The position numbers and the translations under genes are program-made. Below are positions 29,773 to 59,432 of a stretch of DNA of 64,000 nucleotides, piece by piece; positions within the stretch are counted from its first letter, which is position 1, and each line of letters begins with the position of its first letter. Below the pieces are notes generated by a model. That model saw nothing but the letters and a program-made list of their open reading frames with translations, was not told the DNA's origin and did not search any database. The DNA lies in the NCBI RefSeq assembly GCF_003003795.1, contig NZ_PVWK01000081.1, positions 1 through 64,000 on the forward strand, given 5' to 3'. Source of the stretch: Stenomitos frigidus ULC18. GTDB lineage: Bacteria; Cyanobacteriota; Cyanobacteriia; Leptolyngbyales; Leptolyngbyaceae.

Positions 29773-30498
29773 TCAGGCGATCGGGCTCACTTTCGCCCGG
29801 TAAAGCAAGCGATCACCTTGCCGATACCCTGTATAGCGCACTTTGACCGGCTCCCCAATCTGAGCAGTACCCGTCATCAACTGGTGGTACTGGAGATCGT
29901 AGGGAATTTCAGCCCCAACCGGGGCGATCGCCTCAATGCCCCAGTCTTCCAGCAGTCGATCGAGCGGACGCAATAACGGGAGCAGCTTGACCGCAGGAGC
30001 CTGGGGATTTTGCTGCGCTGCATACGCCGCTGTCGGCAGTTGTAGCAGCAGAGATTCCAACGTTTGTATGCTTGCCTGCTGAAACTCCTGCCAAAGCGTC
30101 TGGCGCTGTTGTACGAGCTGTTGCTGGAGGCGATCGTACTCCTGCCTCAAATCTGATAGCTCTTGCAGCGTGGCAGAGTTTTGAGTTTTGAGTTCTAAAT
30201 TTTGAGTTTTGAGTTTTGAGTTTTGAGTTTTGAGTTCCGAGCTTTTAGGCTCACCTCCCGACTCCTGAGCGCTGAGCGCTGACTCCTGAGCGCTCAGCGC
30301 TAACAGTTCCATCACCGACACTTGCAACGTTTGGCTTAGTCGCAACAGAGTATCAACCCGCAAATTAGCCGTTTCCCCTCGCCGCAGATGCCTAATTTGC
30401 TGTTCTGATATGCCCGTTGCCCGGCTGAGTGCCCTAAAACTTAAAAAACCCACCGCCTGCATCAACTCGCGCAAACGGTGGGTGAAATCTTGAGACAT
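29773..30498 (-). CDS. HTH (Xre-like) and GrpE-like fusion protein with repeat-derived linker
   Basis: A 241-residue protein. Residues 5-68 form an Xre-type helix-turn-helix (FRALSRATGISEQQIRHLRR). Residues 69-109 are a linker made of translated heptamer repeats (SAQESALSAQESG, then ELKTQNSKLKTQN). Residues 110-145 are a coiled coil. Residues 170-241 resemble the GrpE C-terminal domain (LLPLLRPLDRLLEDWGIE, RYTGYRQGDRLLYRAKV). GrpE is the nucleotide exchange factor of DnaK. A DNA-binding, GrpE-like protein may link chaperone state to transcription, but this is an inference. It stands alone. Confidence 0.72.
   Translation of the reverse strand: MSQDFTHRLRELMQAVGFLSFRALSRATGISEQQIRHLRRGETANLRVDTLLRLSQTLQVSVMELLALSAQESALSAQESGGEPKSSELKTQNSKLKTQNLELKTQNSATLQELSDLRQEYDRLQQQLVQQRQTLWQEFQQASIQTLESLLLQLPTAAYAAQQNPQAPAVKLLPLLRPLDRLLEDWGIEAIAPVGAEIPYDLQYHQLMTGTAQIGEPVKVRYTGYRQGDRLLYRAKVSPIA
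30172..30294. repeat. Heptamer repeats inside the HTH-GrpE frame
   Basis: Units of TTTTGAG and GAGTTCT (30178-30240) and CTGAGCGCTGA-type units (30265-30300) run through the coding region without breaking it. The encoded peptides have seven-residue periodicity (three 7-base units equal seven codons). Confidence 0.85.
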
Positions 30499-30590
30499 AG
30501 GGAAAGACGTTTTGAGTAAGAAGCTTTGAATTTTAAGTGGTTACCCCTCACTCAAAACTCAAAACTCAAAACTCTTAACTTTCTGCACTC

Positions 30591-31082
30591 TTAACCTTCC
30601 AGCAGGCTTCTCAGCATCCAAGCTGTCTTCTCGTGCACCTGCATCCGTTGGGTTAACAGGTCAGCGGTTGGCTCATCATGCACTTGTTCAAGAGTCGGAA
30701 AGATCGATCGTGCGGTTCGCACAACGGCTTCTTGCCCTTCGACTAACTCACGAATCATATCTTCAGCCTTAGGCACACCCGTTGGTTCAGGAATAGAGCT
30801 CAGACGGCCAAACTCTGAATAGGTGCCAGGTGCTGGGAAACCCAGTGCCCGAATGCGTTCAGCAATCAGGTCTACTGCAAGTGCCAATTCGGTGTACTGC
30901 CCTTCAAACATCAGGTGAAGCGTTTGAAACATTGGCCCCGTGACGTTCCAGTGAAAGTTGTGGGTCTTGAGATAAAGAGAATAGGTGTCTGCCAAGAGAT
31001 GGGATAACCCCTCCGCGATCGCACCCCTCGATTTCTCGTCAATACCAGTGTTGATTGGAATCGTTGCAATTGGAACTGACAT
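30591..31082 (-). CDS. dps: Dps-family ferritin-like protein
   Basis: A 163-residue DNA-binding protein from starved cells, a 12-mer that oxidises ferrous iron with peroxide and protects DNA. The ferroxidase motif [20 protein letters not shown] and [13 protein letters not shown] are visible. The length is typical. It lies upstream of the HTH-GrpE gene (same strand, 92 bases) and downstream of a sulfiredoxin gene, a small oxidative-stress group. Confidence 0.94.
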
Positions 31083-37416: not shown

Positions 37417-37572
37417 AGCGATAGGGAATTTAGGAGACAGTAAATTGGTTTTTGGCAGCGGTTAAACCGAGTAGTCAAAACAAGCTCTAATGAACACTAT
37501 CTTATTCCTAGCGTGTTCGATCACCCTTGCTCCTCTGTATCTGCCTTTTGCTTTCTCTTTGCATCAATACTC

Positions 37573-39213
<1,641 letters not shown>

Positions 39214-57821: not shown

Positions 57822-59432
57822 TCACGTTCGAGTCAGAGCGTACGCATGGGCGACACACTGCTTCAAGAAGCGATCGGGAATGTCGGGTTGTGTGCCCCAA
57901 TGAAGGTGGACGTAAGACGCGTGGAGGTTGGGGAGATGCCAGCCTTCGGGAGTGGGGAGTGAGGAGTGAGGAGTGGGGTGTGGGGTATGGGGTGTGGGGT
58001 GTAGGGAAAAGAGGGGAAAGGGCGATTCTTGGGTGAGATGAGAGCGGTGGAATTCGTGACCGTAGATTTCGGCTCCTTTTTGTAGGATGGGGCTGTCTTG
58101 AAGGGCGATCGCGCGTCGATAGCCCAGCATCAGTCCCTTGCCCATGATTGCCGTTGTCGGCAACACACCGACCATTGGAAAAGACTGCCCCTCAAAATTG
58201 GTGATTTGCTCGCACAAATACATCAGCCCACCACACTCGGCATAGGTTGGTATACCTGAGCAAATGGCCGATCGCACAGCCATTCGTGCAGAGTCGTTTG
58301 CTGCCAGTTGCTCTGCAAACACTTCCGGAAAACCGCCGCCGAAGTAAAGTCCTTGAATACCGTCTGGTAGAGCCCGATCGCTCATCGGACTCCAGACAAC
58401 AAGTTCGGCTCCCAACGCTTCAAGCAAATCCAGGTTGTCGGCGTAGTAGAAGCTGAAGGCAGAATCCTGGGCGATCGCGATGCGGGGGGCGGGGGTAGAG
58501 AGAGTTTTGTATAGCCTTCGGCATTCAAGAAACGCGTAGCGACTCCGTAGCTTTGGCTTCCCGAAGGGTAGGAATAACTTTGAGTTTTGAGTAGCGCTTT
58601 GCGCCGCTACGCTAGTGAGTTTTGAATTTTGATCGTTGATTGCTGACTGCTGTAGCTTGCTTCCGCTTTGCACTACGCTGACCGCTGACTGCTGACCGCT
58701 AACCGCTGACCGCTGACCGCTGACCGCTGACTGCTCACCACTGACCGCTGATCGCTGACTCTCCAACAACGGCATCAACTGCGCCCAATCAAAGCACGTC
58801 TCTCCCAGGTGAGCCAGTTGATCAACGACAGCGTTCAGGTTTGCGAGTTCGGCAGTTGGTACTAAGCCAAGGTGCCGATCGGGGATGGTAATTGCATCCT
58901 GACGACGGAGCACACCCAGAATAGGGATGTTGAGCGGTTCTATAGCCGACTTGAGGAGTGACAGATGGCGATCGCTGCTGACGCGATTAAGCACTACGCC
59001 AGCGACTTTGAGACGTGGATCGAACGATCGGTAGCCATGCACTAAGGCTGCGATCGAGTCCGACATGCCGCTGCAATTCAGCACCAATAGGATAGGCAGA
59101 TCCAGCAGTCGAGCAATGTGGGCTGTGCTAGCAAACCCTGCCTGCCCTGAGGCACCGTCAAACAAACCCATTACCCCTTCAACAAGGGCATGGGTGGCAG
59201 TTTGAGCATGGCGATCGAAGCATTGCTGCACGTATGCTTCTGAGGTCAGCATGGGGTCGAGGTTGCGGCAAACTCGCCCAGTTACATACCGATGAAACAT
59301 CGGATCGATATAATCAGGCCCAACCTTGAACGATTGCACCTGTCGATCCTGTCGCTTTAAATAAGCTAGCAACGCCAGCGTGACAGTTGTCTTGCCGACT
59401 CCACTCCGTTCGCCTGCAACGATTAGCCCCAT
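57822..59432 (-). CDS. cobB: Cobyrinic acid a,c-diamide synthase with repeat-derived inserts
   Basis: A 536-residue glutamine-dependent amidase (CobB/CbiA) of cobalamin synthesis. The N-terminal ATPase domain (GERSGVGKTTVTLALLAYL, EGVMGLFDG, VAGVVLNRV) covers residues 1-223. The C-terminal glutaminase domain (YFGGGFPEVFAEQLA, nucleophile Cys in YAECGGLMYL) covers residues about 315-480. Between them about 88 residues (225-312) are translated heptamer and palindrome repeats (QRSAVSGQQSAVS, SVAAQSATQNSK). A second low-complexity insert (LHPTPHTPHPTPHSSLPT) lies near the C-terminus. Both domains seem intact and in frame. Confidence 0.9.
   Translation of the reverse strand: MGLIVAGERSGVGKTTVTLALLAYLKRQDRQVQSFKVGPDYIDPMFHRYVTGRVCRNLDPMLTSEAYVQQCFDRHAQTATHALVEGVMGLFDGASGQAGFASTAHIARLLDLPILLVLNCSGMSDSIAALVHGYRSFDPRLKVAGVVLNRVSSDRHLSLLKSAIEPLNIPILGVLRRQDAITIPDRHLGLVPTAELANLNAVVDQLAHLGETCFDWAQLMPLLESQRSAVSGEQSAVSGQRSAVSGQQSAVSVVQSGSKLQQSAINDQNSKLTSVAAQSATQNSKLFLPFGKPKLRSRYAFLECRRLYKTLSTPAPRIAIAQDSAFSFYYADNLDLLEALGAELVVWSPMSDRALPDGIQGLYFGGGFPEVFAEQLAANDSARMAVRSAICSGIPTYAECGGLMYLCEQITNFEGQSFPMVGVLPTTAIMGKGLMLGYRRAIALQDSPILQKGAEIYGHEFHRSHLTQESPFPLFSLHPTPHTPHPTPHSSLPTPEGWHLPNLHASYVHLHWGTQPDIPDRFLKQCVAHAYALTRT
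57945..58012. repeat. G-rich low-complexity repeat near the cobB 3' end
   Basis: Units of GGAGTGA and GGGGTGT (plus strand) repeat several times and encode the His/Pro/Thr-rich insert on the minus strand. Confidence 0.8.
58497..58760. repeat. 264-bp repeat insertion inside cobB
   Basis: From right to left: about ten GCTGACC/GCTGACT heptamers (58670-58760), TTTTGAG-type units, the palindrome AGCGTAGCGGCGCAAAGCGC on the minus strand (about 58594-58613), and a GCGTAGCGACTCCGTAGC-type dispersed repeat (58535-58552). The length is a multiple of three, and the frame stays open. Confidence 0.88.

Follow-up and report, generated by a model that had tools for sequence, protein, structure and literature searches.

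The linker between the DNA-binding and GrpE-like halves of an HTH-GrpE protein of Stenomitos frigidus ULC18 carries in-frame tandem heptanucleotide arrays, and we consider it likely, at a probability of about 0.8, that they belong to a self-expanding heptanucleotide STRR family spread through the genome, of which they are one coding case, and that they serve mainly as a tolerated spacer of variable length. We favour tolerance since sister species hold different repeats at the same place and since there are many such insertions, including some in DNA-repair enzymes. The gene lies in a window of 64,000 nucleotides (contig NZ_PVWK01000081.1, positions 1 to 64,000, forward strand). Features are collected in Table 1; our own handles for genomes, contigs and loci are used where these must be told apart, G000 being the genome of this strain.

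An HTH-GrpE fusion

The product has an N-terminal XRE/Cro-type HTH domain, a variable linker and a GrpE-like part in which a long helix is followed by a beta domain. The initial annotation had read the gene as a fusion of these two halves, which is borne out by Pfam, where both domains exceed their cut-offs (HTH_26, 8.8e-11 and 42.3 bits against 22; GrpE, PF01025, at residues 82-238, 8.4e-8 and 32.5 bits against 25.8), and by Foldseek, in which the best PDB matches of the AlphaFold model are GrpE structures and XRE HTH domains. The top GrpE matches, 3a6m and 1dkg, gave TM-scores of at most 0.44 with a low-confidence model as the query. Because the AlphaFold input alignment had 4 rows the models are of modest quality, with a pLDDT of about 64-84 in the HTH_26 region. 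When a 4-row profile was searched against PDB sequences, the only matches were weak ones, to designed repeats and to a coiled coil, and GrpE was not among them.

Matches to the family occur in 123 of 144 relatives, some of them paralogs or partial, and judged by these matches HTH-GrpE is a widespread and conserved cyanobacterial family. A separate GrpE is encoded in the same genome (G000:C89:56229-56681) and scores 149 bits against 33 for HTH-GrpE; the two are 24% identical in a poor pairwise alignment. Since this higher-scoring GrpE exists, HTH-GrpE need not be a DnaK exchange factor, and it is probably not the housekeeping one.

Heptamer arrays in the linker

Two arrays lie in frame within the linker and encode the peptides ALSAQESALSAQES and LKTQNSKLKTQNLELKTQNS. 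The one nearer the GrpE-like half was described by TRF as GAGTTTT x8.7, that is (TTTTGAG)8.7, with 88% matches and a score of 101; TRF and translation together confirm the earlier claim that TTTTGAG-type units encode LKTQNSK repeats between the two halves of the protein. The array nearer the HTH domain also overlaps the span given by the initial annotation (30172-30294). The period-7 signal of the linker exceeds that of all codon shuffles (1000/1000, p<0.001). When the linker was scored at periods 4 to 12 none was comparable to 7, and the rest of the gene contains no other period-7 run of the size of the linker arrays. The TTTTGAG unit is open on one strand only, the opposite strand containing TGA, and hth-grpE reads the open strand, with CTCAAAA as the sense unit.

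As seven is not divisible by three, one seven-residue heptad requires three DNA units (21 nt). The proposed correspondence between a seven-base unit and a seven-residue heptad thus holds as arithmetic, but it is not specific, given that any heptamer, if it can be read through, yields a period of seven residues.

Table 1. Features of the hth-grpE locus and of two further array-bearing genes; positions refer to the window unless a contig is named.
Feature	Position	Strand	Basis
hth-grpE gene, 241 aa	29773..30498	(-)	ORF, Pfam, Foldseek
HTH_26 domain, residues 8-69	30292..30477	(-)	Pfam
Variable linker, residues 67-113, 47 aa	30160..30300	(-)	Ortholog alignment, anchor distances
Heptamer array nearer HTH, CTGAGCG (GCGCTCA/GGAGTCA type), encodes ALSAQES ALSAQES	30260..30301	(-)	TRF, translation
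Heptamer array nearer GrpE, sense unit CTCAAAA x8.7, encodes LKTQNSK LKTQNLE LKTQNS	30176..30236	(-)	TRF, codon shuffle
GrpE-like region proper, residues 114-238, long helix then beta domain	29785..30159	(-)	Pfam, AlphaFold, Foldseek
Intergenic heptamer array, GAGTTTT in gene sense, inverse of the coding array	30550..30574	(-)	TRF, upstream sequences
Dps-like ferritin gene directly upstream of hth-grpE	30591..31082	(-)	ORF; Dps named by sequence resemblance
mutS, with a 75-bp GAGTTTT array and an 82-bp GCTGACG array directly ahead of ATPase domain V	G000:C92:49602-52604 (L087:9602-12604, L139)		
Fpg/MutM, two heptamer-coded inserts in the N-terminal domain	G000:C92:89333-90313 (L089, L155)		

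The linker in relatives

In anchored ortholog alignments the HTH and GrpE halves are conserved and the linker is free. Period-7 arrays occupy it in six of the seven genus members, with units that differ between species: CTCAAAA and GTCAGGA in G004, CAGCGGT in G001, GGAGCCA in G006, AGGAGGC in G005 and a mixture in G002. The peptides found there in other sister species are QRSAVSG, GARSQEA or proline-rich. The linker does vary in length among relatives, as the initial annotation had supposed; it spans 23-47 aa within the genus, about 5-7 aa in several relatives of another genus of the same family, and 12-61 aa across 80 orthologs. Since the linker is so variable, it is unlikely that the protein depends on a strict geometry of its DNA-binding and GrpE-like halves.

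Outside the genus, period-7 signals were found in the linkers of G010, G023, G014, G122 and G140, the last of which encodes the proline-rich PIPNPHY. A further 31 loci scored for period 7 contained no array, and some of their linkers look repetitive at other periods. The linkers of the relatives at L174, L190 and L013 look repetitive with a five-residue LQNTT repeat, a four-residue SQPE repeat and a 10-nt period, which suggests from sequence that the HTH-GrpE linker tolerates microsatellites generally.

Three types of unit were counted across genomes. GTCAGCG gave 346 21-mer matches in G001, 72 in G000 and 0 in G004, and AAAACTC gave 6, 123 and 190 in the same order. The linker unit broadly follows the common genomic unit of its species (GTCAGCG in G001, CTCAAAA in G004 and G000); the count for GTCAGGA leaves the GTCAGGA block of the G004 linker unexplained. 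That unit counts differ sharply between sister genomes, and that the linker broadly follows them, points to genome-wide turnover of units by slippage or recombination, and length would presumably also continue to change within a single species.

Arrays of AAAACTC also occur in Bacteroidota, Acidobacteriota, Armatimonadota and others. Many matches to LKTQNSK in unrelated phyla were rejected as homologs; most of them are ORFs, short or spurious, that cover AAAACTC arrays between genes. In the loci L041-L064, heptamer arrays of the AACTCAAAACTC type are seen in Bacteroidota, Acidobacteriota, Armatimonadota, Desulfobulbus, Loktanella and others; such arrays also lie inside a CobN-like ORF of 1455 aa in Kastovskya and a leucyl-tRNA-synthetase-like ORF in Stenomitos rutilans, both named by sequence resemblance.

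Heptamer arrays across the genome and their host genes

A survey of 464 kb of G000 found 122 period-7 arrays, whereas the other periods tested gave 0-8, with the exception of 14, a multiple of 7. With genes predicted by a simple codon-usage script, so that counts within CDS are approximate, 60 arrays were intergenic, 50 (41%) lay in predicted CDS and 12 at gene edges, in DNA that is 82% coding; arrays are enriched between genes, yet they are common inside them. There are about 40 normalised units, of which AAAACTC, the unit of the hth-grpE linker, and ACCGCTG are the commonest. The genome thus holds heptanucleotide tandem units at many loci and several distinct families of unit in place of one mobile sequence, both of which are features of cyanobacterial heptanucleotide STRRs. 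The finding was repeated in G001 and G010. In G011, a member of the family, 400 kb contained 4 arrays, none wholly within a gene.

By Pfam, the hosts of these arrays include MutS, Fpg/MutM, AnmK, a CobB/CbiA-type enzyme, an SNF2 helicase and a TPR protein. The inserts in MutS and MutM resemble the HTH-GrpE linker in that they lie at fixed sites and vary in sequence and length across the genus members found. In MutS the site before domain V, after the core, differs between genus members in both the sequence and the length of the insert, and a third heptamer array follows domain II. In Fpg/MutM the sites are shared by six genus members and the peptides are different. Within the window, the gene for the CobB/CbiA-type amidotransferase (57822-59432) has in-frame arrays at 58676-58758 (SAVSGQR type) and 57948-58006 (TPHTPHP type), and a PMT_2-family gene (37513-39213) has an in-frame GGAGTCA array at 38570-38605 that encodes GSQESGVRSQESE.

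A slip of one unit in mutS should cost the protein its ATPase domain, making a mutability switch possible. Extending this, STRRs in these cyanobacteria could be a spreading coding element with which each species rewrites the peptides at fixed, tolerant sites of conserved proteins, among them the mismatch-repair protein MutS and the glycosylase Fpg/MutM, using its own prevailing unit, while slippage in mutS could toggle mutability and so feed back on the arrays. We regard this extended reading as doubtful; were it true, the rules of frame would make each surviving whole-unit change a step of seven residues.

Orientation of arrays within genes

The peptides of the two strands were compared for arrays in predicted genes of G000, G001 and G010 whose units are open on both strands (n=54). 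In 50/54 the peptide actually encoded is more hydrophilic than that of the opposite strand (binomial p=4e-11, a value to be read in the light of partial dependence between adjacent arrays in one gene and between copies in related genomes). For example, TPHTPHP is encoded and not GVWGVGC, and RGERREE and not LLSPLSS. As purine-rich and C-rich sense strands both occur, avoidance of G-rich mRNA alone is insufficient to account for the bias. In the same genomes, units closed on both strands make up 28/176 intergenic arrays and 1/112 of those in CDS.

Based on these observations, we propose the following course of events. The heptanucleotide STRR family would have colonised the flexible inter-domain linker of HTH-GrpE, where arrays would grow, shrink and swap units through slippage or recombination. 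Survival would then be filtered at the level of the protein, which admits stop-free orientations and net changes that keep the frame (three whole units being 21 nt, or 7 aa), and inside genes the orientation encoding a hydrophilic peptide would be preferred. The heptad peptide may, incidentally, prolong the GrpE helix by a few turns in this species. The arrays, their frame, their differing sequences at fixed sites in three proteins, the orientation bias and the absence of length quantisation are observed; the motor, slippage or recombination, and the neutrality of the spacer are what we infer.

Does the repeat build a coiled coil or a switch?

The initial annotation went further and proposed that the DNA repeat could directly extend a coiled coil; array length would then set the spacing in heptads and tune DNA binding or the interaction with DnaK. 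In the hth-grpE product of the window the repeat leucine takes the d phase and the asparagine the a phase relative to the GrpE helix that comes after them, continuous with L114, L117, Y121 and L124. AlphaFold draws a single helix over 96-163, and whole-unit changes that keep the frame always gain or lose whole heptads. To this extent the proposal is supported. LKTQNSK is also in phase in G002, but in G004, which shares the CTCAAAA unit, it is 2 residues out. A continuous heptad pattern of hydrophobic residues in the linker is thus not conserved in relatives: it keeps register in G000 and G002, loses it in G004 and is missing from other species, some of which have linker peptides that lack heptad hydrophobics or are rich in proline or glycine.

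Nor do the lengths favour it. The seven linkers of the genus measure 47, 30, 35, 43, 44, 27 and 23 aa, which are 5, 2, 0, 1, 2, 6 and 2 modulo 7, and the distance between HTH and GrpE anchors in 80 orthologs falls into the seven classes as 16/9/16/13/6/12/8, with no clear quantisation by 7. An apparent excess among 26 longer linkers, 10/26 of which fell in one class, was lost with the 80 orthologs. The structure model does not support it either: a low-confidence helix is drawn from residue 96, but residues 72-108, and the ALSAQES block, are of low confidence (pLDDT below 50 for 72-108), and the linker of a sister protein with GARSQEA repeats (L037) was modelled as coil. The occurrence of such arrays in unrelated genes throughout the genome likewise speaks against a device for lengthening one coiled coil. 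Because of the register, the modulo-7 distances and the AlphaFold models of this protein and L037, we do not take the helix to be the conserved property; it may be real in this species and yet not be what the linker site conserves. We therefore consider direct extension of the coiled coil unlikely. Against the tolerated spacer, however, it must be said that LKTQNSK is in phase in two of the three species with this repeat, where a helical function could have been selected.

A second possibility is a phase-variation switch, in which a change of one or two units gives an HTH-only protein and reversibly uncouples the DNA-binding half from the GrpE half. In silico, changes of -1, -2, +1 or +2 units truncate the product at 98-190 aa with loss of GrpE, whereas changes of +/-3 units retain the GrpE half. 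In the ortholog of G013 (L065, G013:C40) a degenerate, C/T-rich, heptamer-like tract separates HTH and GrpE halves that do not share a reading frame; this could be a natural frame shift or a draft error, as this draft is fragmented and an assembly or sequencing error is possible. However, every other ortholog with a complete locus is in frame, and the imperfection of the array in the window should slow slippage. We think it very unlikely that the linker works as such a switch.

Relation to known repeat systems

Palindromic elements of Rickettsia, of about 100-150 bp, insert in frame into unrelated proteins and encode tolerated peptides. The arrays described here are likewise an in-frame family with probably tolerated peptides, but they are microsatellites.

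The nearest relatives are the heptanucleotide STRRs, or heptameric SSRs, of Calothrix and Nostoc, which form genome-wide period-7 arrays of variable copy number; several heptanucleotides have been reported for Calothrix, and heptameric repeats are abundant in Nostoc and other bacteria (PMC4692102). The work on G-rich heptamers stressed their intergenic location and under-representation in coding regions (PMC4692102). The arrays of S. frigidus share the genome-wide period of 7, but 41% lie in frame within predicted genes, where the encoded peptide biases their orientation. TAACTGA heptamers of Beggiatoaceae, Cyanobacteria and Bacteroidetes contain stops in one orientation, while copies in ORFs in the reverse orientation encode LSVISYQ and were located for the most part within short hypothetical proteins or at the termini of proteins (PMC4679880). 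These too are scattered across distant phyla, with stops in one orientation and a seven-residue repeat; in contrast, the arrays described here lie inside conserved enzymes and an inter-domain linker, at persistent sites with turnover of units between species.

Short intragenic repeats in mutL and mutS of other species have been proposed as mutability switches (PMC2955026). They resemble ours as in-frame tandem repeats in which loss of a unit would break the protein; here the heptamers of mutS, about 75 and 82 bp, directly precede domain V. In E. coli tolA an intragenic repeat of variable length differs in copy number between strains, and synthetic in-frame variants were tested (PMC3477136). 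Both are in-frame repeats in a protein, but with a 7-nt unit only three-unit steps keep the frame. In the open literature, with few subscription papers covered, we did not find a description of in-frame colonisation of conserved proteins at fixed sites with species-specific units and a peptide-set orientation bias. Cyanobacterial heptamers, which have been described mainly as intergenic, would on our reading steadily supply core proteins with in-frame spacer peptides that differ from species to species. How bacteria cope with a load of microsatellites in their essential genes, and whether this load shapes repair genes such as mutS, thereby become testable questions.

The upstream region

The order and strand of dps and hth-grpE are the same in 26/51 loci examined, many of which have short flanks, and from gene order the two form a conserved pair. 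The intergenic GAGTTTT array between them is kept at its position in six of the seven genus members, with shortening in one, and persists in G001 and G002 despite the rarity of its unit in the rest of those genomes. It is predicted to form a hairpin with the downstream ACTCAAAAC, and is possibly a terminator or operator.

In this species the intergenic and coding arrays are also predicted to form an RNA duplex of about 25 bp (MFE -164 against -122 +/- 6.5 kcal/mol for shuffles, z -6.5). A leader-coding duplex in the mRNA, very strong here, was rejected as it is not conserved in the genus; it shrinks or disappears in other members because the coding array changes its unit. That the arrays act as nucleic acid, the intergenic GAGTTTT and coding CTCAAAA pairing in mRNA or recombining as inverted repeats so as to control the gene, would accord with the duplex and with the persistence of the intergenic array, but is extremely improbable. 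Exact complementarity in other genus members is at most 12 nt or absent, and what is conserved lies between the genes, where it also folds into a local hairpin and could act alone. By eye, the dps–hth-grpE spacers of other genera look hairpin-forming as well.
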